From NCBI RefSeq assembly GCF_003004785.1, contig NZ_PVZS01000037.1, positions 1-40,944 of the forward strand: DNA of 40,944 nt, in the 5' to 3' direction. The translations under genes were made by a program, and so were the position numbers. The stretch is from Alsobacter soli (GTDB lineage: Bacteria > Pseudomonadota > Alphaproteobacteria > Rhizobiales > Beijerinckiaceae). Positions 17,697 to 40,210 of this stretch are shown here, in pieces. The notes below the pieces were generated by a model. It did not search any database and was not told where the DNA came from. It was given only the letters and a program-made list of their open reading frames with translations. How positions within the stretch are numbered: position 1 is the stretch's first letter; each line of letters starts with the position of its first letter.

Positions 17697-17724
17697 TTGC
17701 AGGCCCACGGCGGCGCGCTACTGT
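17697..17724 (+). promoter_or_regulatory. Predicted promoter of the GST-GNAT pair
   Basis: TTGCAG at 17697-17702 and TACTGT at 17719-17724 are separated by 16 bp, 35 bp upstream of the GST start. Pattern match only. Confidence 0.35.
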
Positions 17725-17758
17725 CGCGCCGGACACCCCCGCGAGCACGAGGTTGATC

Positions 17759-18397
17759 ATGAGCGCGCGCTATACCCTCCACGGCATCTTCCTGTCTGGC
17801 CCGAGCTACACGGTGGCGCTGGCCCTGTCGCTCGCCGGCGAGCCCTTCGACTATGTCCACGTGAACCTACGCGCGGGCGAGCAGAAGTCGCCCGAGTTCC
17901 TGGCCAAGAACCGGTTCGGGCAGGTGCCCTGCCTCACCGACAAAGCCAATGGCCGCAACCTGTGCCAGTCGGCCGCCATCCTGGAATACATCGCCGACAA
18001 GACCGGCAAGCTTGGCGGCGCCACCTTGGAGGAGCGGATCGCCGCGCGCGAATGGATGTTCTGGTGCTGGGACAAGCTGGTCGCGCCGATCTACCGGTCG
18101 CGCATGGCCAAGCTTGGCCTGCGCCCTCTCGATGAGGCGACGCTCGCCATGTACGCGGCCGACGGCGCGGCGGCGCTGGGCTTCCTGGACAAGTCGCTCG
18201 CCGGGCGCGACTGGCTGGTCGGGGAGGGCGCGACGATCGCCGACATCGACCTCTATGGCGTCGTCCACTACGCCGGGGAGGCCGGCTTCGACCTCTCGCC
18301 CTACGGCAACATCAACGCCTGGGTGGCGCGGGTCCGCAGCCTGCCGGGCTTCGGCGAGCCGGCGCAGCTGCTTCCGGCGGAGAGCCGCGCCGCGTGA
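17759..18397 (+). CDS. Glutathione S-transferase family protein
   Basis: The 212-residue cytosolic GST has an N-terminal thioredoxin-like domain with LHGIFLSGPSYTVALALSLAG and the cis-proline segment NRFGQVPCLTD, then the glutathione-binding QSAAILEYIADKTG. An all-helical C-terminal domain follows with the N-capping motif GEGATIADIDLYGVVHYAG. The usual catalytic Ser/Cys position reads SGPS. The substrate is unknown. Its stop overlaps the GTG of the acetyltransferase gene (GTGA), so the two are co-translated. Confidence 0.92.
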   Translation: MSARYTLHGIFLSGPSYTVALALSLAGEPFDYVHVNLRAGEQKSPEFLAKNRFGQVPCLTDKANGRNLCQSAAILEYIADKTGKLGGATLEERIAAREWMFWCWDKLVAPIYRSRMAKLGLRPLDEATLAMYAADGAAALGFLDKSLAGRDWLVGEGATIADIDLYGVVHYAGEAGFDLSPYGNINAWVARVRSLPGFGEPAQLLPAESRAA

Positions 18398-21278: not shown

Positions 21279-22679
21279 ATGACCATGCGGCCTGACCCCA
21301 CATTTTACGCGACACCGCGGCTCGCGATGGAGGCTCCGCCCGAGAAGCACGCCTATGCGCTCATGCTGAGCGGCGATTTCTCCCAGCCCGACGGACTGGC
21401 CGTCATTGATGTCGACCCCGCTTCGAAGACCTGCGGCTCCATCGTCTACACGGTGATGATGCCCAACAGGGGCGACGAGTTTCACCATTTTGGCTGGAAT
21501 GCGTGCTCATCGGCGCTGTCGCCCCTGACCGGGCACGCTTTCCTCGAGCGGCGCTACCTGATCATCCCCGGGATGCGCTCGTCCCGCATCTATGTGATCG
21601 ATACGAGGCCGGACCCGACCCAGGCATCGATCCACAAGATCATCGAGCCGGAGGAGATCTTCCGGAAAACCGGCTACTCCCGTCCGCACACGATCCACTG
21701 CGGGCCGGAAGGCATCTACGTCTCGACTCTTGGGGGCGGCGGAGCCGACGGCACGCAAGGCCCGCCCGGCATCTTCATCCTGGACTGCCAGACCTTCGAA
21801 GTGCTGGGCCGCTGGGAGATCGATCGCGGCCCGCAGGACAAGCACTATGATTTCTGGTGGAACCTGCCTCGCGACTACATGGTCTCGAGCGAATGGGCGC
21901 TGCCGCCGCAATTCGAGAACGGCATCGTTCCCGAGGATCTCCTGTCCAACAAATACGGCCACCGGCTGCATTTCTGGGACCTGAGGGCTCGCCGGAACGT
22001 GCAGACGATCGACCTCGGCGCCAACCACCAGATGGCGCTCGAAGTCCGTCCGGCCCACGATCCCGTCAAGGAATATGGCTTCGTCGGCGTCGTGGTGGAC
22101 ACGACGAACCTCGAGGGGTCGATCTGGACCTGGTGGCGGCAGGGCGGCTCCTTCCATTGCCGCAAGACGGCGACGATCCCGCCCGAGCCGGCCTCCAAGG
22201 ATATTCTTCCACCCCTGCTGCAGGGTTTCGAGGCCGTGCCGCCTCTGGTCACGGACATCGATCTCTCGCTCGACGACCGGTTCCTCTACGTCTCCTGCTG
22301 GGGCACAGGCGAGATGCGCCAATACGACGTTTCTGATCCCATGGCGCCGAGACTGGCGGGTTCGGTGCACATCGGCGGCATCGCGCGCCGGACGAAGCAC
22401 CCGGGCGGCGTCGACTTCCAAGGCGGCCCGCAGATGGTCGAGATCAGCCGCGACGGCAGGCGCGTCTACTGGACCAACTCACTGTACTCGACCTGGGATG
22501 ACCAGTTCTATCCGCGCGGGATCCCTGGAGCGATGGTGAAGGCCAATGCCGGAGCGAACGGCGGCCTGGAACTCGACCCGAACTTCTTTGTCGAGTTCCC
22601 GAAGGGCTATCGCTCCCACCAGATCCGCCTCGAGGGCGGCGACTGTTCCACGGACTCGTTCTGCTACCCCTCGGTGTGA
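21279..22679 (+). CDS. mtoX: Methanethiol oxidase / selenium-binding protein 56 family
   Basis: The 466-residue protein belongs to the SBP56/SELENBP1 family. Bacterial and human members oxidise methanethiol to formaldehyde, hydrogen sulfide and hydrogen peroxide, and the bacterial enzyme is copper-dependent. Signatures: DEFHHFGWNACSSAL with Cys76 at the position of the selenium-binding Cys in SELENBP1, RYLIIPGMRSSRIYVID, SRPHTIHCGPEGIYVSTLGG, DKHYDFWWNLPRDYMVSSEW, GHRLHFWDLR, and the C-terminal SHQIRLEGGDCSTDSFCYPS. Many conserved His residues fit a metal site. No signal peptide is seen, unlike the periplasmic Hyphomicrobium enzyme. GGAAGGGAA precedes the ATG. A membrane-protein gene follows after 7 bp. 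Confidence 0.93.
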   Translation: MTMRPDPTFYATPRLAMEAPPEKHAYALMLSGDFSQPDGLAVIDVDPASKTCGSIVYTVMMPNRGDEFHHFGWNACSSALSPLTGHAFLERRYLIIPGMRSSRIYVIDTRPDPTQASIHKIIEPEEIFRKTGYSRPHTIHCGPEGIYVSTLGGGGADGTQGPPGIFILDCQTFEVLGRWEIDRGPQDKHYDFWWNLPRDYMVSSEWALPPQFENGIVPEDLLSNKYGHRLHFWDLRARRNVQTIDLGANHQMALEVRPAHDPVKEYGFVGVVVDTTNLEGSIWTWWRQGGSFHCRKTATIPPEPASKDILPPLLQGFEAVPPLVTDIDLSLDDRFLYVSCWGTGEMRQYDVSDPMAPRLAGSVHIGGIARRTKHPGGVDFQGGPQMVEISRDGRRVYWTNSLYSTWDDQFYPRGIPGAMVKANAGANGGLELDPNFFVEFPKGYRSHQIRLEGGDCSTDSFCYPSV

Positions 22680-23503: not shown

Positions 23504-25006
23504 TCAGGCGCCGTAGCGTTCGGCGAGACGCCTGATGTAGGCGTCGGGCGCAAGCGGACTGCCGGTGGCGTGCTGCAGGATCTCCGTGCGGCTGCGGCGG
23601 CGGCCGTGGCGCCAGACGCGGTCGCGAAGCCAAGCGCCGAGGGGGGCGTAGTCGCCCCGGTCCAGTCCGTCCGAGACCCCGTCCACGCGCATGGCGGCCT
23701 CGAACAGCTGGGCCGCCATGACGTTGCCGATGGTGTAGGTGCAGAAAGAGCCGATCATCCCTGACGACCAGTGGATGTCCTGCAGCACGCCACGGCGGTC
23801 GTCGGGCGGCGTCAGGCCCAGATGGCGGCGCATGGCGTCGTTCCAGGCGGCCGGAAGATCGCCGACGGAGAGTCCGCCGTCCATCAAGGCGGCCTCCAGT
23901 TCGACCCGCACCATGATGTGGAGATCGTAGGTCAGTTCGTCCGCCTCCACGCGGATGAGGCTCGGACGGACCACCGTCACTGCGGCGTAGAACTGGTCCG
24001 GGGTGAGGCTGGCCAGCGCGTCCGGGAACGCCGCCTGCAGATCGGCGAAGTGCAGACGCCAGAAACGCAGGCTGCGGCCCACATGGTTCTCCCAGAGCCG
24101 GGACTGCGACTCGTGGGCGCCGAAGCTCGTCCCGCCGACCGCGTAGAGGCCGACGAGGTCGGTCGCGAAGGCGCTGCGCGTGTAGCCGGGGTCGACGTTC
24201 TGCTCGTAAAGGCCATGCCCGGTTTCGTGGAAGGCGCCGAACAGGGCCGGGCGCAGATCCTGGACGTTGAACCGCGTCGTGATCCGGACGTCGCTGCGCG
24301 TGAACGAGATTTCGAACGGGTGAACCGTCGCGTCGAGGCGGCCGCGGCCGAAGTCGTAGCCGAACAGCGCGGCGAAGCGCTTGGCCGTCTCGGCCTGGAT
24401 GGATGGGGGGAAGGGGCCGCCGGAGAGCTCGGCCGGCGGCCGCTCGCGCGCCTTCTCGAGCAACGGCGCAATTCCGAGACGAAGGTCCGAGAACAGCGGC
24501 TGAAGAGTTGCGACAGTCTCGCCGGGCTCGTAGAGCCCAATCATGGCGTCGTAGCGGTGCTCCGACCAGCCGATGGCGTCCGCGTAGTCGCGCGTGCTGG
24601 CGACCGTCTCTTCCAGCCAGGGCGCGAACGCGGCGAAGTCATTGGCGTCGCGCGCCGCCGCCCAGGCCGCGTTGGCCTTGGCGCGGATCGCCGCCCGTCG
24701 CTCCACGAGCTCGGCTGGCACGCGCCGGTGCAAGCTCACGGCCTGGCGGATCTGACGAAGCTCCTCGTGCGCGTCGTCGTCAGGCGGCAGGCCGGCGACT
24801 TCCTGCTCGGCTTGGTCCAGCAACTCGAGCGTCTGGTCGGCCGCGATCATGTCGCGCGCCAGCCGGGTCGCGGTCGCGATCTGATGGCCTCGCGACTCCG
24901 TGCCTCCGGCCGGCATCATCGTGCGGCTGTCCCAGACAAGCAGGTTGAGCGTGCACAGCAGGTCGGAAACGGTCGCGATGCGCTGACGCAAAGCTGTCAG
25001 GCTCAT
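23504..25006 (-). CDS. M32 family carboxypeptidase (Taq type)
   Basis: The 500-residue zinc metallocarboxypeptidase removes C-terminal residues from peptides in the cytoplasm. The zinc motif HETGH is at residues 260-264 in GAFHETGHGLYEQN, the M32 signature. Other M32 blocks are TMMPAGGTESRGHQIA near the N-terminus, RSAFATDLVGLYAVGGTSFG, ESQSRLWENHVGRS and DIHWSSGMIGSFCTYTIGN. Length equals the family norm. The ATG at 25006 is preferred (MSLTALRQRIATVSDLL); AGAGGA lies upstream. It is the last gene of the leftward operon, 13 bp after the second ATPase. This places peptide hydrolysis directly behind peptide import. Confidence 0.95.
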   Translation of the reverse strand: MSLTALRQRIATVSDLLCTLNLLVWDSRTMMPAGGTESRGHQIATATRLARDMIAADQTLELLDQAEQEVAGLPPDDDAHEELRQIRQAVSLHRRVPAELVERRAAIRAKANAAWAAARDANDFAAFAPWLEETVASTRDYADAIGWSEHRYDAMIGLYEPGETVATLQPLFSDLRLGIAPLLEKARERPPAELSGGPFPPSIQAETAKRFAALFGYDFGRGRLDATVHPFEISFTRSDVRITTRFNVQDLRPALFGAFHETGHGLYEQNVDPGYTRSAFATDLVGLYAVGGTSFGAHESQSRLWENHVGRSLRFWRLHFADLQAAFPDALASLTPDQFYAAVTVVRPSLIRVEADELTYDLHIMVRVELEAALMDGGLSVGDLPAAWNDAMRRHLGLTPPDDRRGVLQDIHWSSGMIGSFCTYTIGNVMAAQLFEAAMRVDGVSDGLDRGDYAPLGAWLRDRVWRHGRRRSRTEILQHATGSPLAPDAYIRRLAERYGA

Positions 25007-25019
25007 GGGGAGGATCCTC

Positions 25020-26015
25020 TCAGGTCGAGGGCGCGCCCGCGAGATGGCACGCCACGGGCCAGCCGCCATGGCGTCGGTCCAGGGCTGGGACCTCCGTCCT
25101 GCAGCGCGGCTCCGCGATGGGGCAGCGGGGATGGAAGGGGCATCCAGGCGGCGGGGCGATGGGGCTCGGCAGTTCCCCGCGCACGGCTTCCCGGGTCGAG
25201 CGCTGGTGGGGGTCGACCTGCGGCACGGCCGCGATCAGGGCGCGCGTGTAGGGATGCCGCGGCGCCGTGAACACGGCCTCCGTGTCGCCGGTCTCGACCA
25301 CCTTGCCGAGATACATCACGGCCAGCCGGTGCGATACGTGCCGGACGAGCCGCAAATCGTGGGTGATGAACACAAGGGAGAGGCCGAGCCGGTCCTGCAA
25401 CTCCAAAAACAGGTTCACCACCTGGGCCTGCACCGACACATCGAGCGCCGAGACAGGCTCGTCGGCGATGATGACGGATGGCTCCACCGCGAGAGCTCGG
25501 GCGATGCCGACGCGCTGCCGCTGGCCGCCGGAGAACTCGTGGGGATAGCGGTCCGCGGCGTCGCGCGGCAGGTGGACCAGGTCGAGCAATGCGCCGACCC
25601 GATCGCGCGTCGCCGAGGGCTCCACGATCCGGTGGACGGTCAGCGCCTCAGCCAGGGCGTCGCCGACCGACAGGCGCGGGTTGAGCGAGGCGTAGGGGTC
25701 CTGGAACACCATCTGGACCCGGCGATGATAGGAGCGGCGGGCCTCGCCCGTGAGACCCAGCACGTCCTTGCCTTCGAACCGGACGGCGCCGCAATCCGGT
25801 TCGTAGAGGCGCACCAGGCACCGCGCCAGGGTGGACTTGCCGCAGCCCGACTCGCCGACGACGCCAAGGGTTTCCCCCCGATTGACGGAGAGAGACACCC
25901 CGCCCAGGGCCTGAAGCGCCCGCTGAGGCCGGCCACGGAGCGCGTCGGCCAGGCTGCGGCCGAGCGGAAAGGCCTTGGTCAGGTTTTCAACCTGCAGGAG
26001 GGCGCCGTCCTTCAC
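25020..26015 (-). CDS. Peptide ABC importer ATP-binding subunit (DppF/OppF type)
   Basis: The 331-residue ATPase has Walker A GESGCGKSTLA, Q-loop MVFQDPYASLNPR, signature FSGGQRQRVGIARALA, Walker B VIIADEPVSALD and H-loop THDLRLVRHVSHR. The C-terminal oligopeptide-transporter extension with clustered cysteines is present (PGCPFHPRCPIAEPRC). It starts with GTG at 26015, overlapping the stop of the preceding ATPase gene (GTGA). It pairs with that subunit to power the two permeases. Confidence 0.95.
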   Translation of the reverse strand: MKDGALLQVENLTKAFPLGRSLADALRGRPQRALQALGGVSLSVNRGETLGVVGESGCGKSTLARCLVRLYEPDCGAVRFEGKDVLGLTGEARRSYHRRVQMVFQDPYASLNPRLSVGDALAEALTVHRIVEPSATRDRVGALLDLVHLPRDAADRYPHEFSGGQRQRVGIARALAVEPSVIIADEPVSALDVSVQAQVVNLFLELQDRLGLSLVFITHDLRLVRHVSHRLAVMYLGKVVETGDTEAVFTAPRHPYTRALIAAVPQVDPHQRSTREAVRGELPSPIAPPPGCPFHPRCPIAEPRCRTEVPALDRRHGGWPVACHLAGAPST

Positions 26016-27010
26016 GCCGGGACCTCCCGCCTGGCGAGCCGGTCACTGGCCCAGCAGGCCGCCTCCTGTCCGGGAGCCACCGGCGCGAAGGGCGGCGCCT
26101 CAGCGCCGCAGCGCCCCTCGGCATAGGCGCATCGAGGCGTGAAGGGGCAGCCCTGGAGGGGCCTGTCGAGGCGCGGGGGCAGGCCGGGGATTGGCCGCAG
26201 CGGCGCCCTCGCGACGCCGCCGTGCGGCATGCTGCGCAGAAGCGCGTCCGTGTAGGCGTGCCCGGGGGCGGTGAAAACGCGGTCCACCGGGCCGGTCTCG
26301 ACGACACGGCCGGCGTACATCACGCTGACCCGCTCGCAGGTCTCCGCCACGACGCCGAGATCGTGGGTGACCAGGACCATGGCCATGCCGAGCTCTCGGC
26401 TGAGGCGCAGCAAGAGCTTGAGGATCTGGTCCTGGATGGTAACGTCCAGCGCGGTGGTCGGCTCGTCGGCCAACAGCAGCTTCGGCTCGGCCGCCAGGGC
26501 GATTGCAATCATGGCGCGTTGGCGCATGCCGCCCGAGAACTCGTGCGGATAGCCGGCCAGCCGCTGCGCCGCCGAAGGGATGCCGACGAGATCGAGCAAC
26601 TCGATGGCTCGGCGTCGACGACCCGCCGCGTCCAGAGCCGTGTGAGCCTGAAGGCTCTCCGCGATCTGAACCCCGATCGGAATCACCGGGTTGAGGGCCG
26701 ACATCGGCTCCTGGAAGATCATTGCGATCTCCCGCCCGCGCAGAGCGCGCAGGCGTTTCTCGGGCATGGCGAGCAGATCTTGCCCGCGCCACCGAGCCTC
26801 GCCGGTCGTGGTCGCGTTGCTGCGCAGCAGGCGCAGGATCGCCCTCAGGGTGACGCTCTTGCCTGAGCCGGATTCTCCGACGAGACCCAGCGTGTCGCCC
26901 GGCGCGAGGGCGAGATTCACGCCGTCGACGGCCCGCACCTCACCGCGGCTGGTGGCGAAGCGGACGCGCAGGTCGCGGACCTCGAGTATGGGCTGTGGAC
27001 GCTCCGTCAT
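26012..27010 (-). CDS. Peptide ABC importer ATP-binding subunit (DppD/OppD type)
   Basis: The 332-residue ATPase has Walker [13 protein letters not shown]-loop [12 protein letters not shown], signature [16 protein letters not shown], Walker [13 protein letters not shown] and H-loop [12 protein letters not shown]. It ends with the oligopeptide-family cysteine cluster [15 protein letters not shown], which in related proteins can hold an iron-sulfur cluster. The ATG at 27010 overlaps the upstream permease stop (ATGA). The longer open frame beyond 27010 is the shadow of the permease gene. Confidence 0.95.
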
Positions 27011-27834
27011 CGCCGCACGTCCATGAGGTCTGCGAGGCCGTCGCCGAAGAGGCTGAAGCCCATCCCGCACAGCACGATGGCGGCGCCGGGAAAGACCGTG
27101 ATCCACCACGCCTGCGAGAAGAAGTTCTTGCCGTCGGCGATCAGCACGCCCCATTCCGCGGTGGGCGGCTGGGCCCCGAGCCCGAGATAGCCCAGGCTCG
27201 AGCCGAGCAGGATGGCGAGGGCCATGTCGGTCATCCAGTAGACCAGGATCGGACGGGCCGCGTTCGGCAAGATATGGCGCAGCAGGATGCGCCGCTCGGG
27301 GTAGCCGAGCACCTTGGCGGCAGAGACGTAATCCTGCCCGCGCAGGACCATCACCTCCGCCCGCATGAGCCGGGCGTAGAAGACCCAGCCGACCACCCCG
27401 ATGGCGATGTACATGTTGGACAGCCCCGGGCCGAGCACCGCCACGATGGCGATGACCAGCACCAGGAACGGGAAGGTCACGACGAGGTCGACCAGGCGCC
27501 CGAACACGGCGTCGGCCAGCCCGCCGTAATAGCCGACGAGAAGCCCGACGATCGCACCGATCACCAGGGGGCCGAGCGTGGCGAAGATCGCGATCTGCAG
27601 GTCGACCGTCGCCGCCGCGATGGTGCGGGACAGAATGTCCCGGCCGAACTGGTCGGTGCCGAAAGGGTGCGGCGCCGAGGGCGGCTGCAACAGGGCCCCG
27701 TAGTCGAAGGCCAGCGGGTCGTAAGGAGCGATGAGGCCAGGCGCCAGGGCGCAGACCGCCAGGGCCGCCAGAATGACGACGCCGGCGACCAGCGAGACCG
27801 GCGCGCGGCGCCAGGCGAGCGCAACGGCGGTCAT
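27007..27834 (-). CDS. Peptide ABC importer permease (DppC type)
   Basis: The 275-residue inner-membrane permease has the DppC/OppC N-terminal cytoplasmic and first-helix region. The signature GTDQFGRDILSRTI leads into the BPD_transp_1 domain (IVGLLVGYYGG). The coupling EAA-type loop reads MRAEVMVLRGQDYVSAAKVLG. About six membrane helices are predicted. Start and stop overlap its neighbours by 4 bp on both sides. Confidence 0.95.
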   Translation of the reverse strand: MTAVALAWRRAPVSLVAGVVILAALAVCALAPGLIAPYDPLAFDYGALLQPPSAPHPFGTDQFGRDILSRTIAAATVDLQIAIFATLGPLVIGAIVGLLVGYYGGLADAVFGRLVDLVVTFPFLVLVIAIVAVLGPGLSNMYIAIGVVGWVFYARLMRAEVMVLRGQDYVSAAKVLGYPERRILLRHILPNAARPILVYWMTDMALAILLGSSLGYLGLGAQPPTAEWGVLIADGKNFFSQAWWITVFPGAAIVLCGMGFSLFGDGLADLMDVRR

Positions 27835-28769
27835 CGGGCCACGCGGGGATCAAGGGCCATCTGGACGAGGTCGGTGACCAGGAAGGCGAGTGACACGACC
27901 ACGGCGAGGATCAGGGTCAGGGCCTGGATCATCGGGTAGTCGCGGGCGAAGATGCTGTCGACCATGAGGCGGCCCATCCCTGGAACGGCGAACACGCTCT
28001 CGGTGATCACCGCTCCGCCCAACAGGGAGCCGGCGTGCAGGCCCACCAGCGTCACCGTCGAGATGAGCGCATTGCGCAGCACGTGGCGCGTCAGGATCAC
28101 GCGGCGGGACAGGCCCTTGGCGCGGGCGAAATCGACGAATTCCGCGTTCAGCACCTCCAGCACCGAGGCGCGCAGGTTGCGCATGATGACGGCGGCGAAG
28201 CTCAGGGCCAGCGTCACGGCAGGCAGCAGGAGGTGCCACAGGATGTCGGCGACGCCTTCGCCATAGCCTCCCACCGGGAACCACCGGAACCAGGCGGCGA
28301 AGACAGTCAGCAGGATGAGGCCGACATAGAACACCGGCGACGACAGACCCACCTGAAAGACGCTGCGGATCAGGAAGTCGGGCCAGCGGTTGGCGTTCAG
28401 GCCTGCCACGAAGGCGAGCGGAACGGCGAGTCCTAGCGCGATCAGGGTAGCGAGCCCCGTGAGAGCAAGCGTGACGGGCAGGCGCTCGGCGATCACGGAG
28501 GTGACGGGCACGCGGAAGGCGATCGACGTGCCGAAATCCCCCCTGACGGCGTTTTCGAGGAAGATGGCGAACTGCTCGAAAATCGTGCGGTCGAGGCCCA
28601 TCTGCTGGCGCAGGCGGTTCACGGCCTCGTCCGACGCCCGATCGCCCAGCATGGCGCTGACGGGGTCTCCCGGCAGCAGGCGCGCCAGCACGAAGACGAC
28701 GACGCCGATGAGCAGGAAGGTGGGCACGATCTGCAGGAGGCGCGCGGCGATCAGTCCGGCCTTGCTCAT
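27831..28769 (-). CDS. Peptide ABC importer permease (DppB type)
   Basis: The 312-residue permease opens with the family N-terminus LLQIVPTFLLIGVVVFVLAR then LLPGDPVSAMLG. The coupling loop is MRNLRASVLEVLNAEFVDFARAKGLS. The gating region GGAVITESVFAVPGMGRLMV is highly conserved in DppB/NikB-type subunits. The start is 63 bp downstream of the binding-protein gene. Confidence 0.95.
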   Translation of the reverse strand: MSKAGLIAARLLQIVPTFLLIGVVVFVLARLLPGDPVSAMLGDRASDEAVNRLRQQMGLDRTIFEQFAIFLENAVRGDFGTSIAFRVPVTSVIAERLPVTLALTGLATLIALGLAVPLAFVAGLNANRWPDFLIRSVFQVGLSSPVFYVGLILLTVFAAWFRWFPVGGYGEGVADILWHLLLPAVTLALSFAAVIMRNLRASVLEVLNAEFVDFARAKGLSRRVILTRHVLRNALISTVTLVGLHAGSLLGGAVITESVFAVPGMGRLMVDSIFARDYPMIQALTLILAVVVSLAFLVTDLVQMALDPRVAR

Positions 28770-28832
28770 CCTCGGTCCTGGTTCATGGCGGCGGAGGGGC
28801 TCGCCGCAGCATGCGCCGCGGCGAGCGTGACG

Positions 28833-30428
28833 TCACTTCTCGATGTAGGCCGCCTCGAACAGGTTGTTGCCCAGCGGGATCTGCACGAATCCCTTGGCGT
28901 TCTTGCGGAACGCAACCGGGTAGGGCGTCTCATAGAGGTACAGGATGGGCGCGGACTCGTTGTAGCGCTGCTGGATCTCGCGGTATTGCTCGGCCCGGGC
29001 CTTGGGGTCGATCTCCTGCTGGCTCTTCTCGAACAGTTCATCCACGCGCTTGTCCTGCCAATTCGAGTGCAGCGAGTGGATGTTCGGCCAGTACGCGAAG
29101 TAGGACGTGATCTGGCTCGGGTCGGAGATGTCGTTCGTCCACGCGGAGGTGCGCATGCCGAAGTTCTCCTCGCGGTAGCGAGCCGTCCGCGTGGCGTTGT
29201 CGACCTGGTCGATGCGCAGCTTCACCCCGACCTGGGCCCACATCTGTTGAACGGCCGCGAGGTCATTGGCGTCGTCGCCGTTGCCGGAGAGCGAGTAGAT
29301 CTGCAGGTCGAAGCCGTTGGCCATTCCCGCCTCGGCCAGGAGCGCCTTGGCCTTGGCGAGATCATACTTGTAGAGGTTGTCCTGGCCCACGAAGAGGGGG
29401 GTCGTCGCCGACATGAATGACCGCATCGGCTTGCCGAGGCCGAGCGTGGTGATTTGGATGATGGCGTCCTTATTGACGGCGTAGTTCAGCGCCTGGCGCA
29501 CCTTGGGATTTGCCACCGGGTTCGGCTTTCCGTCCTTGTAGGTGGGGCCGCAATAGAAGGTCAGGTAGCGAACGCGGGTCGAAGGCCAGAGCTCCATCCG
29601 GAGGTTGGGATCGGCCTGCAACTCTTTCACCCGCGCGTAGGGGATGAACTCCGTGCCATCGATCTCGCCGGCCTTCAGCTTGAGAAGGCGGGTGGCGTCG
29701 TCGGGGATGATCTGAAACTCGAGCTCGTCGAGATAGGGCAGGGGTTTCCCATCTTCGCCCTGCTTCCAGTAGTAGGGGTTGCGCTTCAGCGTCATGGAGA
29801 CGCCGCGCTTCCATGCCGTCATCACGAACGGACCCGTGCCGATCGGCTTTTCGGCGAAGGACTTGGCCTTCTCCTCCGGGGTTGCGCCAGGGGAGGCTTC
29901 GAACGCTTTCTGCGGCAGGATCGCGCTGTTGAAGGTGGCGAGCGCCGGGAGGATGGTCGGGTCCGGGTGCTTGAGCGCCAGGGTCACCGTTTCCGGGCCG
30001 GAGACCGAGACCGACTCGATGGACGCGAGGGATGAATTCCAGGCCCCGGCCTTCGGGTCGCGGGCCCGGTCCAGCGACCACTTGACGTCGTCGGCGGTCA
30101 GCGCCGAGCCATCCGCAAATTTGACGCCGGGCCGCAGCGCCAAGGTGACGGTCTTGCCGTCGCCCGAGACGTCCCACTTGGTCGCCAAGCCGGGCTGCAC
30201 GCCGAGGCCGTCGGCCGTCGGCTGCAGCAGCGTGTCGTAGAGGTTGGTCAGCACCCAGATGTCGACGTTCGCGTCGTTGAGAACCGGGTCGAGGAACAGG
30301 CTGTCGGCGTAGCGCGCGTACACCATCTTGCCGCCGCGTGTCGCCGCGTCGGCGATCGAGGGCAGCTGGACCAGGCCTGTCGCGACAGCGAGCGCGACGA
30401 GACTCGCCTTCAGGAATGTCCGTCTCAT
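28833..30428 (-). CDS. Periplasmic peptide-type solute-binding protein (SBP family 5)
   Basis: The 531-residue secreted receptor delivers substrate to the permeases. The signal peptide (MRRTFLKASLVALAVATGLV, cleavage near ADA) lacks a lipobox cysteine, so it should be soluble. SBP_bac_5 features: LYDTLLQP, GLATKWDVSGDGKTVTLALR, GVKFADGSALTADDVKWSLDRA, KPIGTGPFVMTAW, NPYYW and the hinge segment NPKVRQALNYAVNKDAI. The ATG at 30428 has GGGGAG 7 nt upstream; a TTG just before it is less likely. Family members bind di- and oligopeptides, opines, nickel or glutathione; the ligand here is unknown. It is the first gene of the leftward operon. Confidence 0.95.
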   Translation of the reverse strand: MRRTFLKASLVALAVATGLVQLPSIADAATRGGKMVYARYADSLFLDPVLNDANVDIWVLTNLYDTLLQPTADGLGVQPGLATKWDVSGDGKTVTLALRPGVKFADGSALTADDVKWSLDRARDPKAGAWNSSLASIESVSVSGPETVTLALKHPDPTILPALATFNSAILPQKAFEASPGATPEEKAKSFAEKPIGTGPFVMTAWKRGVSMTLKRNPYYWKQGEDGKPLPYLDELEFQIIPDDATRLLKLKAGEIDGTEFIPYARVKELQADPNLRMELWPSTRVRYLTFYCGPTYKDGKPNPVANPKVRQALNYAVNKDAIIQITTLGLGKPMRSFMSATTPLFVGQDNLYKYDLAKAKALLAEAGMANGFDLQIYSLSGNGDDANDLAAVQQMWAQVGVKLRIDQVDNATRTARYREENFGMRTSAWTNDISDPSQITSYFAYWPNIHSLHSNWQDKRVDELFEKSQQEIDPKARAEQYREIQQRYNESAPILYLYETPYPVAFRKNAKGFVQIPLGNNLFEAAYIEK

Positions 30429-30431
30429 CAA

Positions 30432-30587
30432 ATTTCTCCCCTCTGCGGCTTCACGCCGTCCTGTGTTCTGTCCTAGGATGCTAGAAGGGTGGACGTGAGA
30501 ACGTCAACAGGCGCAACTTGCGATCCAGCCGTTCCGCTCGGATTTTGAGCGCATCGCCAAAACATTGTGCTAACCGTCTAGAACACA
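30432..30587. promoter_or_regulatory. Divergent control region of the peptide/amide cluster
   Basis: The gap between the binding-protein gene and gntR holds both promoters. TGTGTTCT at 30462-30469 and AGAACACA at 30580-30587 are exact inverted copies, one near each start codon. An inverted TGTG...CACA (30566-30587) overlaps the gntR ATG, and TTCT...AGAA frames 30466-30486. These are candidate sites for the adjacent GntR protein, which would control both arms and itself. Confidence 0.45.
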
Positions 30588-31603
30588 TGCCCGGCGCCGC
30601 CCTCCTCAGCAACATCGCCTCGGCGCTCGACAGGAGCCTGCCGGTGCCGCTGAGCGTGCAGCTGAAGGGGCTCATCGAATACGGCATCGCCTGCGGCGAG
30701 CTGCCCCCTGGCGTGCGGCTGCCCTCTGTACGGGAATTGGCGGAAGCGAGCGGAATAGCGCCGATGACGGCCGTCGCGGTCTACCGTGAGCTGCAGCGAA
30801 GCGGGCTCATCACAAGCCGTCCCGGCGCTGGAACCTATGTGGCGGAAGGACCCCGCCGGGACGGCTCGGAGGCGCTTGCGCGTGTCCAGGCCCACCTCGA
30901 GGCGGCATTGGCGGAAGCGGAGGCGGGCGCGATTCCGCTCGCGCAGGTGGCCTCGCTGCTGAACGCCGCCATCAGCCGAGGGCGCGTCCGCGAGGGCCGG
31001 CCGATGCGCCTGCTCATGCTGGGGGTGTTCCGCGACGCGACGCGAGCCTACGCCCAGGAGATCGCGCGGCAGTTGAAGCCGGGCGACGTGATCGAGCCCT
31101 GCACCTTCGACGAGATGCGGGCAGGCCTCCGGGCCGGGCCGGCGCCGGATCTCGTGGTCACCCTGGCCAACCGCAAGGCCGAGGCCGAGGCGGCCATGGG
31201 CGGGCGGGCTCCCGTGACGGCGGTGAGCTTCCTGCCCTCGGAACAGACCCGCGCCCTGCTGGCCGCCATCGATCCGCTGGCGCGGGTGGGCCTCGTTTCC
31301 GTCTTCCCGGAATTTCTGGCGCTGATGAAACCCGGCGTGCGTCGGTTCGCACCCCACGTGCGCGAGATCGAAGCCATCGTGGCGGACGACCCGAAGCTGC
31401 CTGCCTTTCTGGGGCGGCTGGACGTGGTGGTCTACGCCACGGGGGCCGAGGGCGCTCTTGCGGCGGCGGGAGCCCCCGCGGGCGCCATCGAATACCGCCA
31501 CGTCCCCGATCCCCATGCGGTGCAGGAGAGCCTGCTGCCGCTCGTCGAAGCGATCAGGAGCGGCGCCGTTGGGCGTCAGCCAGCCAAGGAGGCGATCCGA
31601 TGA
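30587..31603 (+). CDS. GntR-family regulator with unusual effector domain
   Basis: The 338-residue protein has an N-terminal GntR winged helix (about residues 15-85): VPLSVQLKGLIEYGIACGEL, LPSVRELAEASGIAPMTAVA, VYRELQRSGLI and GAGTYVAEG. After a linker helix the C-terminal ~200 residues (from RPMRLLMLGVFRDATRAYAQ) alternate strand and helix like a periplasmic-binding-protein or Rossmann fold. They do not resemble the usual FCD, UTRA or aminotransferase (MocR) effector domains. The ATG at 30587 is chosen; the frame is open further upstream into the promoter. It is divergent from the transporter and coupled (ATGA) to the creatininase gene. It probably senses the imported compound or a metabolite. 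Confidence 0.88.
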   Translation: MPGAALLSNIASALDRSLPVPLSVQLKGLIEYGIACGELPPGVRLPSVRELAEASGIAPMTAVAVYRELQRSGLITSRPGAGTYVAEGPRRDGSEALARVQAHLEAALAEAEAGAIPLAQVASLLNAAISRGRVREGRPMRLLMLGVFRDATRAYAQEIARQLKPGDVIEPCTFDEMRAGLRAGPAPDLVVTLANRKAEAEAAMGGRAPVTAVSFLPSEQTRALLAAIDPLARVGLVSVFPEFLALMKPGVRRFAPHVREIEAIVADDPKLPAFLGRLDVVVYATGAEGALAAAGAPAGAIEYRHVPDPHAVQESLLPLVEAIRSGAVGRQPAKEAIR

Positions 31604-32301
31604 GGATCAGCGACATGAACTGGATGCAGGTGGAGGACTACCTCAAGCGCGATGACCGCGCGGTGGTCCCGCTCGGTTCAACGGAGCAGCACGCCTACCT
31701 GAGCCTGTCGGTCGACTCCATTCTCTCCGAGCGGGTGGCCCTGGAGGCGGCCGAGCCGCTCGGCGTGGCCGTATTTCCGGTCCTCGCCTACGGCATCACT
31801 CCCTACTTCATGGCTTATCCGGGCACCGTGTCGCTGAAGATGTCGACCTATGCGGCCGTGGTGTCCGACGTGCTCGACTCGCTCCGAAAGGCGGGCTTCC
31901 GGCGCATCCTGCTGTGCAACGGCCATGGGGGCAACTCACCCGCCCAGACGGTCGGGGTGGAGTGGATGGGCGCCAATCCGGGCGTCGTCGTGCGCTTCCA
32001 CAACTGGTGGAACGCGCCCAAGACCTTCGCCAAGGTCCAGGAGATCGACAAGGTCGCCTCGCATGCGTCCTGGATGGAGAACTTCCCATGGACGCGGCTG
32101 CCGAACATCCGCGGGCCCGAGATCCAGAAGCCGATGGCCGACCTCGACATGATGCGCACCAAGGATCCGGCCGGCGTCCGCGGCGTCCTGGGCGACGGTA
32201 ATTTCGGGGGCCTGTACCAGCGGAGCGACGAGGACATGCAGGCCATCTGGGACGTCGCAGTGGCGGAGACGCGCGCCCTCATCGAAGGGCCCTGGTCATG
32301 A
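31600..32301 (+). CDS. Creatininase-family amidohydrolase
   Basis: The 233-residue metal-dependent enzyme belongs to the family that opens cyclic amides or removes formyl groups (creatininase, FAPy deformylase, MftE peptidase). The metal site is visible as GSTEQH with Glu29 and His31, Asp39 downstream, and CNGHGGN with His109. The first motif reads GSTEQHAYLSLSVD, one residue shorter between His and Asp than the common GSTEQHGPHLPLGTD. This places it in a variant subgroup. Its stop overlaps the next gene (ATGA). The substrate is not known; a lactam or N-acyl bond of the imported molecule is a reasonable guess. Confidence 0.9.
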   Translation: MRISDMNWMQVEDYLKRDDRAVVPLGSTEQHAYLSLSVDSILSERVALEAAEPLGVAVFPVLAYGITPYFMAYPGTVSLKMSTYAAVVSDVLDSLRKAGFRRILLCNGHGGNSPAQTVGVEWMGANPGVVVRFHNWWNAPKTFAKVQEIDKVASHASWMENFPWTRLPNIRGPEIQKPMADLDMMRTKDPAGVRGVLGDGNFGGLYQRSDEDMQAIWDVAVAETRALIEGPWS

Positions 32302-33332
32302 GCGGCGTCGAGGGTCCGATCCTGGTCTGGGGGGCGGGCGCCATCGGGGGCACGGTCGGGGCCTACCTGACGCGCGCCGGGTTGCCGGTCACCTTCGTGG
32401 ACATCGACAGCGATCATGTCGACGCCATCAACGCGGGAGGCCTCGCCATCGAGGGGCCCATCGAGCAATTCTCCGTCAAGGCCCCGGCCTTCACGCCGGA
32501 CATGGTGGAGGGCCGTTTCGGCTGCATTCTCCTGTGCGTGAAGGCGCACCACACCCGTGGGGCTGCCGAGCAGCTTAGGCCGCATCTGGCGCCCGGCGGC
32601 TACGTCGCCTCGTTCCAGAACGGGCTCAACGAGCTGGAGATCGCGGAGGTCGTCGGCCGCGAGAACACGGTCGGGGCCTTCGTGAACTTCGGGGCCGACT
32701 ACATGAGCCCCGGCGTGGTCCAGTACAGCGGGCGCGGCGCGGTGGTGATCGGCGAGATCGACGGGGCGGTCACGCCGCGGGTGCGGGCGCTGCACGAGAC
32801 CATGCGGCTGTTCGAGCCCAACGCCGTGCTGACCGACAACGTCATGGGCTACCTCTGGGGCAAGCTCGGATACGGCGCCCTTCTGTTCGCCACGGCGCTC
32901 ACTAACGCGTCGATCTGCGAGGCGCTGGACGCGCGCGAGCCCCGGGCCCTGTTCCGACGTGTCGCCGGCGAAGCGACGGCCGTCGCCGGCAAGCTCGGGA
33001 TCCAACCTCTGGGCTTCAATGGCTACGACCCGGCCGCCTTCGCGCCCGGCGCATCGGACGCGGCGGCCGACGCGTCCTTCGACGCCATGGTCGCCCACAA
33101 CGCCAAGTCGGCGAAGACGCACTCCGGCATCTGGCGCGACCTGGCCGTGCGCAAGCGCAAGACCGAGGCGGACGCGCAGCTCGGGCCAATCGTCACCTTC
33201 GGGCGGCAGGTTGGCGTGGCGGCGCCGGCCACCGCGGGGGTGATCGCCATGATTCACGAAATCGAGGATGGCCGGCGGCCGCTCGCCTGGGACAACCTGG
33301 CGGAACTCGCGACTTCGCTGCCACCCGCCTGA
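32298..33332 (+). CDS. Ketopantoate-reductase-like (ApbA/PanE) dehydrogenase
   Basis: The 344-residue NADP-dependent enzyme has the N-terminal Rossmann motif ILVWGAGAIGGTVGAYL, then LLCVKAHHT and the SFQNGLNE loop. A C-terminal helical domain contains the catalytic-lysine region MGYLWGKLGYGALLFATAL. PanE proper is usually ~300 residues; this is longer and sits in a catabolic operon. It is therefore probably not the pantothenate enzyme but a paralogue acting on another 2-oxo or 2-hydroxy acid. The start overlaps the creatininase stop. Confidence 0.88.
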   Translation: MSGVEGPILVWGAGAIGGTVGAYLTRAGLPVTFVDIDSDHVDAINAGGLAIEGPIEQFSVKAPAFTPDMVEGRFGCILLCVKAHHTRGAAEQLRPHLAPGGYVASFQNGLNELEIAEVVGRENTVGAFVNFGADYMSPGVVQYSGRGAVVIGEIDGAVTPRVRALHETMRLFEPNAVLTDNVMGYLWGKLGYGALLFATALTNASICEALDAREPRALFRRVAGEATAVAGKLGIQPLGFNGYDPAAFAPGASDAAADASFDAMVAHNAKSAKTHSGIWRDLAVRKRKTEADAQLGPIVTFGRQVGVAAPATAGVIAMIHEIEDGRRPLAWDNLAELATSLPPA

Positions 33333-33342
33333 GGAACACACC

Positions 33343-34089
33343 ATGCAAATCTCATTCGAGGGGCGGAGGGCGCTGGTCACCGGGGCCGCCAACGGCATTG
33401 GGCGCGCCATCGCGCATGAGCTCGCCCAATCAGGCGCTCAGGTGGTGGCGGTCGACATTCTGGCGCGAGAGCTCGAGGGGGCTGGCGCTCATCCGTCCGG
33501 CCGAATCTCGACCGCCGCGTGCGACTTGACGCGCAGGGCTGACACGCAGGCTCTCGCCCGGGACTACGGGCCGTTCGACATCTTCGTGCATAGCGCAGGC
33601 GGCGTATGCGGTCAGGTTGGACGGCCCCTGGAGGAGGTGCCGGAGGAGGACTGGGACGCCATCGTGGCCATCAACCAGAAGGCTCCGTTTTTGCTGGCGC
33701 AGGCGCTTGCGCCGTCGATGAAGGAGAGGCGCTACGGCCGCATGGTGTTCATCTCCTCCGGGGCGGGGCTTGGAGTCAGCCTGACCGGCATCCAGGCCTA
33801 CGCGTCGGCCAAAGCCGGCGAGATCGGGCTCACCCGGCAATTGGCGCATGAACTGGGGCCGTTCGGGATCACGGTCAACAGCGTGGCCCCGGGTTTCGTG
33901 CGCTCGAACCCGACGACCGAACGGCAGTGGGCGAGCTATGGCGCGGAGGGCCAGAAGGCGCTGCTCAACCGGATCGCCACGCGGCGGCTGGGCACGGCCG
34001 AGGACATCGCCAACGCCGTCGCGTTCCTGGCCAGTGAGCAGGCCGGCTGGATCACCGGCCAGACCCTCTCGGTGGACGGCGGCAAATGA
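33343..34089 (+). CDS. Short-chain dehydrogenase/reductase
   Basis: The 248-residue classical SDR has the cofactor motif VTGAANGIGRAIA, HSAGG in place of NNAG, and the catalytic pair Tyr153-Lys157 in AYASAKAGEIGL with a serine in VFISSGAG. The C-terminal WITGQTLSVDGGK is the usual tail. Asp in VVAVDILARE at the end of the second strand suggests NAD preference. It lies 10 bp after the reductase gene, and its stop overlaps the M20 peptidase start. It probably oxidises or reduces a hydroxy/oxo intermediate of the same pathway. Confidence 0.93.
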   Translation: MQISFEGRRALVTGAANGIGRAIAHELAQSGAQVVAVDILARELEGAGAHPSGRISTAACDLTRRADTQALARDYGPFDIFVHSAGGVCGQVGRPLEEVPEEDWDAIVAINQKAPFLLAQALAPSMKERRYGRMVFISSGAGLGVSLTGIQAYASAKAGEIGLTRQLAHELGPFGITVNSVAPGFVRSNPTTERQWASYGAEGQKALLNRIATRRLGTAEDIANAVAFLASEQAGWITGQTLSVDGGK

Positions 34090-35483
34090 TGGAGACGAGC
34101 GCCGTCGAGTCGCTGCTGGAGTCCGAAAGGCCGCGGCACCTGGAGATCCTGGAGCGTTTCGTCGCCATCCCAAGCGTGTCCACCGACCCCGCCTACAAGC
34201 CTCACATGGCGGAGGCGGCCGCGTTCGTCGCCGAGCGCCTCCGGCAGGCGGGCATGGAAGCCGTGGAGATTCACCCCACGGAGGGGCACCCCGTGGTGAC
34301 CGCCTCCTGGCGGAGGGCTCCCGGGGCGCCCACTGTCCTGGTCTATGGCCATTACGACGTGCAGCCGCCCGAGCCGATGGACGCCTGGACCTCTCCGCCG
34401 TTCCGGGCCGAAGTGCGGGAAGGGCGCCTCTACGCCCGTGGGGCGTCCGACGACAAGGGACCCATGCTGATCCCGATCGCGGTGGCGGAGGCCTTCATGC
34501 GGGTCGACGGCCGGCTGCCAGTGAACCTCGTGTTCCTGTTCGAGGGGGAGGAGGAGGTCTCGAGCGCGCACCTGGAGGCCTTCGTGGCCGCTCATCGGGA
34601 TCTGCTCGCCGCAGACTTCACGCTTTCGGCCGACGGCGCGCAATGGCGTGCGGACCTCCCGAGCGTCACGGTGGCCAGCCGCGGCATCTGCGCCCTGGAG
34701 GTGGTCGTGCGCGGTCCCGGCAAGGACCTGCACTCCGGCCGGCACGGCGGCGCAGTGGTCAACCCCATCCAGGCGCTTGTCCGGCTCTTGGCTAGGTTGC
34801 ACGACGACCGGGGAGCCGTGGCCGTTCCCGGGTTCTATGACGGCGTCGAGCCAGTAAGCGAGGACGAACTCGCCGCCATCGCTTCAATCCAGTTCGACGA
34901 GGCGGCCTATCTGGCCGAAGTGGGCGCCCCGGCCCCCGGCGGCGAGCAGGGGTACACGCTGCTGCAGCGCAACTGGTTGCGTCCCACCCTCGAGTTCAAC
35001 GGGGTGGTCGGGGGCTATACGGGCGCGGGGAAGAAGACCGTCATCCCGCATCAGGCCTCGGCCAAGATCACCTGCCGCCTCGTGCCGGGCCAGGATCCAC
35101 AACGGGTCGTCTCGCTCATCGCCCGCCATCTCGCGGCTGCTGCGCCTGCCGGGGTGCGGGTCGAGGTGCGCCGCGAACCCGGCGGGGCGCCGGCCTACGC
35201 CATCCCGGCCGAACACCCCGGCCTGGCGTTGTCCGAAGACATCCTGGAGGAAATTCTCGGACGCCGGCCTGTCCGGGTCAGGATGGGCGCCACGATTCCC
35301 ATCGGCGAGATCTTCCGCCGCGTGCTCGGCATCCATACGGTGTTCTTCTCGTTCTCGACCGTGGACGAGGACTACCATGCCCCCAACGAGTTCTTCCGCC
35401 TGTCCAGCTACGCGGCCGGGATGGTCGCCTGGGCCCGCTACCTGCAGCGTCTGGGAAGCGCCTCGTCCCCTCCGGCCTTCTGA
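34086..35483 (+). CDS. M20-family dipeptidase
   Basis: The 465-residue zinc peptidase resembles carnosinase/PepV-type M20 dipeptidases. The metal residues are His89 and Asp91 (YGHYDVQPPEP), Asp122/123 (ARGASDDKGP) and the glutamates of LFEGEEEVSS. The lid-domain His lies in PGKDLHSGRHGG. The C-terminal part carries DEDYHAPNEFFRL with the last ligand His. Family length is 450-470. It starts at ATGATG overlapping the SDR stop (ATGA). With the M32 enzyme encoded on the other arm, it gives the cluster two cytoplasmic exopeptidases. It is the last gene of the rightward operon. The next 150 bp show no gene. Confidence 0.93.
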   Translation: MMETSAVESLLESERPRHLEILERFVAIPSVSTDPAYKPHMAEAAAFVAERLRQAGMEAVEIHPTEGHPVVTASWRRAPGAPTVLVYGHYDVQPPEPMDAWTSPPFRAEVREGRLYARGASDDKGPMLIPIAVAEAFMRVDGRLPVNLVFLFEGEEEVSSAHLEAFVAAHRDLLAADFTLSADGAQWRADLPSVTVASRGICALEVVVRGPGKDLHSGRHGGAVVNPIQALVRLLARLHDDRGAVAVPGFYDGVEPVSEDELAAIASIQFDEAAYLAEVGAPAPGGEQGYTLLQRNWLRPTLEFNGVVGGYTGAGKKTVIPHQASAKITCRLVPGQDPQRVVSLIARHLAAAAPAGVRVEVRREPGGAPAYAIPAEHPGLALSEDILEEILGRRPVRVRMGATIPIGEIFRRVLGIHTVFFSFSTVDEDYHAPNEFFRLSSYAAGMVAWARYLQRLGSASSPPAF

Positions 35484-35683: not shown

Positions 35684-36520
35684 TTAGGCGAGCAGCATGT
35701 CGTGGTTAGGAGCAGCCGCCGCCGCGAGCAGCGCGTCCTGGCTGGGGGCGCCCGCTGCCGCGAGCAGCGCGTCCTGGTTAGGCGTCGCCGCAGCTGCGAG
35801 CAGCGTGTCCTGGTTAGGCGTAGCGGCCGCGGCTGCGGCAGCGCCGGTGTTGCTCGCAGGGGTGACGTCCAGGCTCCAATGATAGACCAGGTCGAAAGAC
35901 CCGTCCGAATTGCGGGCCGTGGTCGTGAAGTCGTGGTCTCTGAGGTCTTCCTTCGTCAGGACAGTGGTCACCTTCGGCAGGGGATCGTCCGCTTGGATGC
36001 CGGGATCGACTTCTTTCCCTGACGTGGTTATCAAGAGGTTGACGTTGGGATCCCAGTTGTAAAGATTGAAAACGTGGTCCATTGGCACCACGTCGCCACG
36101 TTCATTGATGCTTTCCTTGTAGTAGCTCCAGGTCTGGCCTCCCGCATTGAAGTTGAAGTCGATTTCGGCGTGGTCGCCATTACCGTCCAGAGCTTGATTG
36201 ACCTGGACGTAGTCGAGCGTCAGCCGCAAATTTTCCAGACCGCCGCCGGCTGCGTCACCCGCACCCGCGTTGGGGGTGCTGTGGGGATCCTGAAGTCCGA
36301 GCCGCTCCAGGATCGCGTCATGGATGTCGTTCCGCAGCCCGTTGAAGAGCCGTTCCTGGATGTCGCCAAAGTCGCTTTGGAACAGGCGAGCGAGCGGCGT
36401 CGACGGGGCACCGAGGAAGCCGCCCAGGAAGGACGAGAAGTCCCCAAAGAGCGACGGTTCTTCGGGCCCTGCCGGTTCGTCAAAAGTGGATTGGGTCAGT
36501 CCGGAGATTGTCTCAGACAT
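35684..36520 (-). CDS. Probable type I-secreted protein with C-terminal tandem repeats
   Basis: I do not recognise the family of this 278-residue protein. It contains no cysteine, is acidic and has no N-terminal signal peptide, all typical of type I secretion substrates. Regions: a flexible N-terminus with FGDFSSFLGGFLGAPS (residues 1-45); a helical stretch; a likely beta-sandwich from about 95 to 228 with the possible calcium loop LDGNGDHAEIDF and LVYHWSLDVTP; an Ala-rich hinge; and four 12-residue repeats (AAxAPNQDxLLA type) reaching the last residue. No GGxGxDxxx RTX repeats occur. The start follows AGGAGG at 7 nt. It lies 364 bp downstream of the adaptor gene of a type I exporter on the same strand and has its own promoter region and terminator. 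Export by that system is inferred from context. Confidence 0.75.
   Translation of the reverse strand: MSETISGLTQSTFDEPAGPEEPSLFGDFSSFLGGFLGAPSTPLARLFQSDFGDIQERLFNGLRNDIHDAILERLGLQDPHSTPNAGAGDAAGGGLENLRLTLDYVQVNQALDGNGDHAEIDFNFNAGGQTWSYYKESINERGDVVPMDHVFNLYNWDPNVNLLITTSGKEVDPGIQADDPLPKVTTVLTKEDLRDHDFTTTARNSDGSFDLVYHWSLDVTPASNTGAAAAAAATPNQDTLLAAAATPNQDALLAAAGAPSQDALLAAAAAPNHDMLLA
35688..35831 (-). repeat. Four tandem 36-bp repeats in the 3' end of the secreted-protein gene
   Basis: Units at 35688-35723, 35724-35759, 35760-35795 and 35796-35831 are exactly 36 bp and each begins GCGAGCAGC on the plus strand. They encode 12-residue units ending D-x-L-L-A; the central residues vary as TPNQDT, TPNQDA, APSQDA and APNHDM. 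The final unit runs into the stop codon. Confidence 0.95.
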
Positions 36521-39904: not shown

Positions 39905-40210
39905 GCGCGCTCCCCCGAGGCACAGCCCTACCAGTTGGGTGGAGGCGACGCGCTCCACCCGTGATGACTATTGTCCTAGGAAGTCGAGGTCCTCATCATC
40001 GTCCGCAGCACGGCCCGCGTCAATGCCGGTAATAGCTCTTGTCTAGTCCGGTCTACACCACCAGGGATGATGCGACCTTCCTATTGCTGATGTAGCATCC
40101 CTTCATTACTCGCCAGATTTTGTCACAAAGAAACACAAATACTAACTCACCAACAGCAACTCTTACGACCGGCCAAACCGGGCTAGAGCCGCCATGTGGC
40201 CGGCGTCTGT

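Follow-up and report, generated by a model that had tools for sequence, protein, structure and literature searches.

In the 40,944-bp stretch of Alsobacter soli DNA analysed here (the window, from a 5.19-Mb genome), translation and family searches identify eleven genes (23504–35483) in two divergent arms: M32–oppFDCB–sbp, encoding an M32 carboxypeptidase and a peptide-type importer with its binding protein, and gntR–crn–panE–sdr–m20, encoding a GntR-family regulator, a creatininase-family amidohydrolase (Crn), a PanE/ApbA-family reductase, a short-chain dehydrogenase/reductase (SDR) and an M20 metallodipeptidase. The arms occur together in most loci and share a conserved pair of operators, and on this sequence evidence it is highly likely that they constitute one regulon. 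The importer and enzymes very probably form one uncharacterised nutrient pathway, which is likely to be catabolic rather than biosynthetic; the complete proposal, a single inducible catabolic regulon following the amide route set out below, we hold with somewhat less than even confidence. An earlier note on this DNA, made from its letters, had proposed that the two arms serve one pathway and had named independent occurrence of the arms, or their response to unrelated signals, as grounds for abandoning the idea; the linkage and the shared operator went the opposite way.

Shared regulation of both arms is well supported by the intergenic regions between sbp and gntR, which were compared for the window and 62 other loci (63 regions, including near-copies: 14 from Microvirga, and L052 and L156). 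With a score threshold of 6, a 20-bp palindrome, YGTTMTA-N6-TAKAACR, is present at least once in 63/63 and twice in 60/63 of these divergent promoters, whereas 20 shuffled sets of the same base composition average 5.65 (one site) and 0.3 (two sites). Because the matrix had been trained on the same regions, a 5-fold cross-validation was run on 50 regions, in which Microvirga was cut to one locus, some near-copies stayed and the seed still came from these regions. One site was recovered in 50/50 and two in 44/50 regions at a score of 8, with 48/50 and 38/50 at a score of 10 and 45/50 and 31/50 at a score of 12; the corresponding ranges in five shuffled sets, each trained on itself, were 22–30 and 6–12, 5–15 and 1–3, and 1–7 and 0. 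A scan of 49 loci (972,052 bp) placed 74 sites scoring at least 14 within the promoter regions and 3 elsewhere; of these 3, two are in L104, in the interval between a pair of binding-protein genes and close to an AspA-like gene.

In the window, the stronger copy (TGTGCTAACCGTCTAGAACA, 30566–30585, score 20.3) stops 1 bp short of the gntR start codon (ATG) and is the sole exact match to YGTKMTA-N6-TAKMACR in the genome sequence examined. The other copy (TGTCCTAGGATGCTAGAAGG, 30469–30488, score 10.9) overlaps the −10 hexamer of a predicted sigma-70-like promoter for the importer arm (TTGACG-18-TAGCAT, 30478–30507, reverse strand), which is a consensus match and the one promoter-like site found, on the sbp strand (0.0 expected, standard deviation 0.2). 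Because of the position and conservation of the operator, we infer that GntR binds the palindromes. Further regulon members in the Alsobacter soli genome were sought and none is claimed (117 places versus 74 in the control for a degenerate pattern, and 4 versus 7 for YGTKMTA-N6-TAKMACR with up to one mismatch). Helical phasing of the paired sites was likewise rejected: 41 of 42 spacings (one of 632 bp was dropped), clustering at 96–97, 105–108 and 115–117 bp, gave p 0.013 at 10.5 bp and a printed 0.000 for the best period of 10–11 bp under a jitter null, but significance was lost with the 22 distinct spacings (R 0.23; p 0.30 and 0.096), and 8.5–8.6 bp came out best among the periods scanned. 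The two L104 sites (Neorhizobium petrolearium) make up a second divergent promoter with paired operators (18033–18221); an AspA/AstE-like gene follows downstream, and an amidase gene and, as judged by eye, acetamidase-like genes are close by, which suggests that the regulator has a second target there.

Linkage was assessed by a search of genome contigs with Crn, which returned at least 577 relatives; the best 80 were taken with up to 10 kb of flank, and the gene counts are of tblastn matches no farther than about 10 kb from crn, with an identity floor for sbp, crn and amidase, so that a distant SDR may be counted. Among these 80 loci, panE is found at 77, sdr at 74, the importer permeases and ATPase at 65, gntR at 62, M32 at 49 and m20 at 44; since 25 of the loci are shorter than 20 kb, we also counted the 55 of at least 20 kb, where panE and sdr are each found at 54, the importer at 51, gntR at 49, M32 at 44 and m20 at 33. 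Exactly the window's set (the window's type of binding protein, here the A type, with GntR, M32 and m20, and with neither beta-aspartyl peptidase nor PuuE-like deacetylase) occurs at 26 of the 80. The closest named neighbourhood among the matches listed is that of Alsobacter metallidurans (order Hyphomicrobiales; crn 88% identical), and the carriers include records of Alsobacter, Microvirga, Rhizobium, Mesorhizobium, Neorhizobium, Devosia, Jiella, Inquilinus, Loktanella, Jannaschia and Comamonas. By its conservation across many genera the arrangement is beyond chance. The neighbourhood check that the earlier note had recommended found the two arms together in most of the loci examined.

In evenly drawn, overlapping genome samples, the crn clade is a minority trait, present in 32/397 genomes of the order (E 1e-30), 19/385 of the class and 7/398 of the phylum (both E 1e-50). 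At a cut-off of E 1e-140, the binding protein has matches in 7 of the order's 397 genomes (top three candidates per genome), and the four matches at 56–100% identity, the window's own genome included, adjoin crn; at near full identity, the A-type importer is by these matches tied to crn. Loci L139–L141 have the importer and lack crn. PanE matches 31/392 genomes, 27 with crn and 4 without, and 5 crn-positive genomes lack panE at this cut-off; as judged by a Fisher test that drew crn from 397 and panE from 392 genomes (top five panE candidates per genome), crn and panE are associated strongly, although not absolutely, in these samples. Homologues of crn (E 1e-50 or better) are also present on 33 plasmid records, with Deinococcus, Sagittula, Sulfitobacter, Agrobacterium and Klebsiella among them. 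On a Klebsiella pneumoniae plasmid (L113, 6330–12696), the importer, gntR and crn are flanked by insertion-sequence genes, and this crn is found on 5 Klebsiella plasmid records. A record named Mycobacterium sp. KBS0706 (L044) holds an alphaproteobacterial-type cluster whose layout and operator sequence are shared with two Inquilinus loci (L063, L083); the name is probably wrong.

All eleven genes and families listed in the earlier note are present as placed in Pfam and NCBIfam searches, and its junctions were all reproduced. On the reverse strand lie the Taq-type M32 carboxypeptidase (23504–25006; PF02074, 532.7 bits; HETGH, a HEXXH motif, in the translation), the oppF-type and oppD-type ATPases (25020–26015 and 26012–27010; each PF00005 and PF08352), the oppC-type and oppB-type permeases (27007–27834, PF00528; 27831–28769, PF00528 and PF19300) and the SBP_bac_5 binding protein (sbp, 28833–30428; PF00496). 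This importer is of the Opp/Dpp type (cluster 5), having an SBP_bac_5 protein, two BPD_transp_1 permeases and two ATPases with ABC_tran and oligo_HPY domains. On the forward strand lie gntR (338 aa, 30587–31603; PF00392), crn (31600–32301; PF02633, 141.2 bits against a cut-off of 31.3), panE (32298–33332; PF02558 and PF08546, TIGR00745), sdr (33343–34089; PF13561/PF00106) and m20 (34086–35483; PF01546), whose product exceeds the PRK08201 dipeptidase equivalog cut-off (516.5 versus 441 bits) and has a cytosolic non-specific dipeptidase as its nearest Protein Data Bank entry. The genes overlap by 4 bp at 27831, 27007, 26012, 31600, 32298 and 34086, and are separated by 10 bp between panE and sdr (ATG at 33343), 13 bp between oppF and M32 (ATG at 25006) and 63 bp between sbp and oppB. 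The longest open reading frames overstate some gene starts; that of oppD is most likely 27010, not 27853.

Across these loci the gene set is modular, with the importer, regulator and exopeptidases exchanged between loci and crn–panE–sdr forming a stable core. A second type of binding protein (B type, about 27% identical) with its own importer substitutes for the A type at other loci, and many of the more distant loci have a MarR regulator instead of GntR (21/35 of a second set). Some loci have, in place of m20, a beta-aspartyl peptidase (Asparaginase_2) together with a PuuE-like polysaccharide deacetylase, frequently accompanied by an S58 peptidase; m20 and this pair are nearly exclusive (44 versus 24 loci, both in 2/80; 12 versus 14 in the second set of 35 chosen loci, both in none), with p-values corrected for relatedness by collapsing Microvirga only. 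AspA/AstE, amidase and Xaa-Pro-dipeptidase-like enzymes also recur, and on a Deinococcus plasmid an uninterrupted row of importer, gntR, crn and panE is followed by RraA-like, M32, SDR, amidase, SDR, dipeptidase and M14-like genes. At panE-only loci, the neighbours of the panE relative are other importers, PDA, M28 or P450/old-yellow-enzyme genes, and they gave no lead to a substrate. The earlier note's view of the arms as one pathway is supported, but it did not foresee this modularity or the panE relatives that lack crn in 4 of the 31 panE-positive genomes. At two loci, L206 and L209, crn-less PanE relatives stand beside PuuE-like deacetylase, cytochrome P450, old-yellow-enzyme and acyl-CoA genes (families assigned partly by eye), which suggests that this PanE clade has another catabolic setting.

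The binding protein provides a clue to the substrate. Its nearest solved relative by fold match is AapF, the ligand of which is the ethanolamine amide HEHEAA; Coutinho 2018 and Luo 2021 (PNAS) reportedly describe HEHEAA and the AapF structure. The arginine loop of DppA (R355 of the mature protein, which we take to bind the ligand carboxylate) is deleted in all ten A-type proteins aligned, the window's included, whereas the aspartate that presumably binds the alpha-ammonium group (D408 in mature DppA) is kept as D433 in the window and in 10/10 A-type sequences. The window's protein also falls under every DppA equivalog cut-off. Because the nearest relative AapF binds HEHEAA and the DppA arginine loop is absent, an ordinary dipeptide is an unlikely substrate, and a non-dipeptide amide stands at about an even chance. 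The import of a peptide, one element of the earlier note's proposal, is weakened.

These features bear on the leading rival explanation, ordinary scavenging of nutrient peptides, in which di- and tripeptides would be imported and hydrolysed by M20 and M32 while crn, panE and sdr were peripheral. The importer, M20 and M32 do come from true peptide-handling families, and the amine-binding aspartate is retained; but the carboxylate loop and the DppA score are both lacking, and the supposedly peripheral crn–panE–sdr genes are the most conserved part of the cluster (panE and sdr at 77 and 74 of 80 loci), whereas m20 (44) and M32 (49) are variable. We therefore consider peptide scavenging unlikely. 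The same AapF match raises the prospect of a Pip-like signal system, in which a signal amide of plant or microbial origin would be taken up, detected by GntR and then destroyed by the enzymes, as proposed for PipR/AapA-F of Pseudomonas; AapF belongs to that system, which, in the available text of PMC4981722, follows the same logic of importer, regulator and hydrolases. However, the regulator here is a GntR protein and not a LuxR solo, the eleven genes include no proline iminopeptidase, the two dehydrogenases and, in Deinococcus, five hydrolases resemble catabolism, and carriers such as Loktanella, Sulfitobacter and Deinococcus point to a niche that is not plant-only, so that a signal-destroying role has a low probability.

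Crn itself forms, in our sequence comparisons, its own clade within the creatininase family. Residues E29, H31, D39, H109 and E160, to which we ascribe a metal-site role from the family, are conserved together with a HAxWxENFxxTR motif in at least 121/122 sequences. The protein falls short of the equivalog cut-offs for creatininase (TIGR04448, EC 3.5.2.10; 74.6 versus 235 bits), MftE (TIGR03964; 56.8 versus 172) and IolN (NF041098; 63 versus 245). Another, higher-scoring PF02633 protein is present in 21 of the 22 crn-positive genomes examined (of 32), with at least 192.8 bits as compared with 127–158 for the Crn clade, and the clade splits from 7 such paralogues with a support of 100/98, in a tree built with 7 of the 29 paralogue loci tried and without BrbF (SMc02977).

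The hydroimidazolone ring of methylglyoxal-modified arginine is creatinine-like, and Crn might accordingly open it in the breakdown of glycated peptides (advanced glycation end-products), with the other enzymes recovering the amino acid and lactate or pyruvate. A creatininase-family enzyme beside exopeptidases and oxidoreductases of the 2-oxo/2-hydroxy-acid type would suit such a route, and the beta-aspartyl and PuuE-like enzymes of relatives suggest damaged-peptide substrates, but Crn misses the creatininase cut-off by far and we regard this route as improbable. That Crn is instead the riboflavin formamidase BrbF, in a neighbourhood unrelated to amide catabolism, is more improbable still: BrbF, too, belongs to the creatininase family, is common in Rhizobiales and has a MarR gene beside it (PMC9478397), and neither the window's genome nor genome G329 has a second PF02633 protein over the cut-off, but nearly all other crn-positive genomes examined have one, the Crn clade stands apart from the 7 paralogues in the tree and crn is tied to importers. 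Finally, two unrelated operons that are neighbours by chance are scarcely credible, for although the arms are also found in other combinations, the operator is common to all 63 divergent promoters and the linkage is conserved across genera.

The PanE homologue reaches TIGR00745 (153.4 versus 141.35 bits) and has ApbA and ApbA_C domains; N108, K189 and E290 are kept in all 18 proteins of the alignment, one of which is E. coli PanE, and S276 is kept in nearly all of them. E. coli PanE N180 and N184 are replaced by G193 and F197. We take N108, K189 and E290 to be equivalents of catalytic residues and the two asparagines to be ketopantoate-binding; because the former are kept and the latter replaced, the homologue is probably active on something other than ketopantoate. 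The regulator has a PF00392 winged helix-turn-helix in 34/34 members, and its predicted structure has a predicted local distance difference test (pLDDT) score of 89.7. No credible Pfam match was obtained for its C-terminal alpha/beta domain (about residues 138–325; 30992–31591), in which strands and helices alternate; UTRA, FCD and aminotransferase domains gave no Pfam match in the window's GntR (E up to 5 for the whole protein and up to 10 for the domain alone), and HutC, FadR and MocR effector domains are not among the 25 families listed of the 48 matched by the 34 members. In structural comparison, the matches were filled by the DNA-binding domain.

We propose the following catabolic amide route, in which the enzymatic steps are all inferred from the chemistry of the families and from residue conservation. 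GntR would bind both palindromes and repress both arms until the substrate or its product binds the C-terminal domain and relieves repression. The binding protein would capture a small molecule with a protonated amine and without the free carboxylate of a dipeptide, perhaps a pseudo-dipeptide or cyclic amide such as the HEHEAA of AapF or opine lactams, and the Opp-type transporter would import it. Crn would then hydrolyse a special amide bond, most likely by ring opening, and so free a carboxylate. Since M20 and M32 metallopeptidases require a free carboxyl terminus, they could then split this product, and the PanE homologue and SDR could oxidise the released hydroxy part, which would not be pantoate. 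In relatives, the last hydrolyses would fall to the beta-aspartyl peptidase and PuuE-like deacetylase, the S58 peptidase, AspA/AstE or the amidase. We are doubtful of the order of these steps. The succession of amide opening, trimming and redox processing in the earlier note agrees with the families and conserved catalytic residues, while its substrate and activities are putative.

Several observations weigh against this route or against the evidence for its unity. The shuffled promoters preserved nothing beyond base composition and the motif was first spotted by eye in the same regions; the second operator copy of the window is weak (10.9); the 80 loci are the best of at least 577; and the co-occurrence p-values ignore relatedness. 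Three binding-protein matches at 49–50% identity occur without crn. On the clinical Klebsiella plasmid, the 24.7-kb stretch examined includes importer, gntR and crn and no panE or sdr, and some MarR-type loci with importer and crn likewise have neither in the stretch examined; the redox pair is therefore not obligatory. According to a review, a close AapF homologue does not bind HEHEAA. B-type binding proteins, although they serve the same enzymes, lack the amine-binding aspartate (0/4 aligned) and have an arginine nearby, so that the binding-site logic of the A type may be inapplicable to them, or the two types may take different molecules.

The gene set is present in many Alphaproteobacteria, and in part or whole on Deinococcus and Klebsiella plasmids; soils and the sea therefore probably contain its substrate commonly. 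It is conceivable, although we would not lean on it, that this is a widespread, horizontally shared route for environmental cyclic or modified amides outside described catabolism, combining a repurposed peptide importer that admits an amide without a carboxylate, a new Crn activity that opens it, a PanE paralogue and SDR that oxidise the acyl part, a GntR protein with an effector domain of no named family and a paired operator. In that event, the variable amide hydrolases would be adaptors for different amino-acid conjugates of one core molecule. The operator and the AapF/HEHEAA clue narrow an unknown peptide transporter to a few direct tests, and solving the substrate would give functions to the creatininase clade, the PanE paralogue and the GntR subfamily together.

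Outside the two arms, the window holds a 466-aa protein (16997–18397) with a C-terminal glutathione S-transferase from about residue 260 and an N-terminal part without a Pfam match (E 0.001), and an SBP56/methanethiol-oxidase-like gene (21279–22679; 91.9 bits, far under the MtoX equivalog cut-off of 650) followed by a membrane-like open reading frame without a family match. Beyond m20, a 278-aa open reading frame (35684–36520) whose C-terminus is a 12-residue repeat (a 36-bp tandem repeat at 35688–35821) adjoins a type I secretion pair (HlyD, 36885–38192; PrtD-type ATPase, 38192–39958), of which it is possibly the secreted substrate.

Among known systems, the Pip/Aap system (PipR, AapA-F and PipA of Pseudomonas GM79; AapF structure from strain PDC86) is like the window's cluster in joining a peptide-type importer for a non-peptide amide to linked enzymes and a linked regulator, as opine catabolic regulons also do. 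It differs in having a LuxR-solo activator instead of GntR and proline and alanine aminopeptidases instead of creatininase, M20 and M32 enzymes; since GntR replaces LuxR and no proline iminopeptidase is found among the eleven genes, the cluster is not a member of the Pip system. The opine importers AgaA and MoaA of Agrobacterium (agropinic and mannopinic acid) are about 24–29% identical to the window's protein. E. coli Dpp shares the importer gene set, the fold and the amine-binding aspartate, but has the carboxylate arginine loop that the A type lacks and, within the E. coli genes examined, is not linked to catabolic enzymes. Crn shares the family match and the E/H/D/H/E residues with the PF02633 proteins creatininase, BrbF, MftE and IolN, from which it is set apart by its separate clade, its scores below every equivalog cut-off and its linkage to importer, panE and sdr, and the window's PanE homologue resembles ketopantoate reductase in its N, K and E residues and TIGR00745 match but not at N180/N184 (G193/F197). 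The word 'dehydrogenase' is absent from the available portion of the Pip/Aap paper (PMC4981722). The earlier note knew of no described pathway with this gene set, and this still holds for the matches listed from the open-licence literature (titles and abstract starts), in which creatininase is not described together with ketopantoate reductase, GntR/M20, isoaspartyl peptidase or carboxypeptidase Taq. All parts of the cluster come from known families. The comparisons made here leave its gene combination, the clade to which Crn belongs, the PanE paralogue and the effector domain of GntR unassigned.

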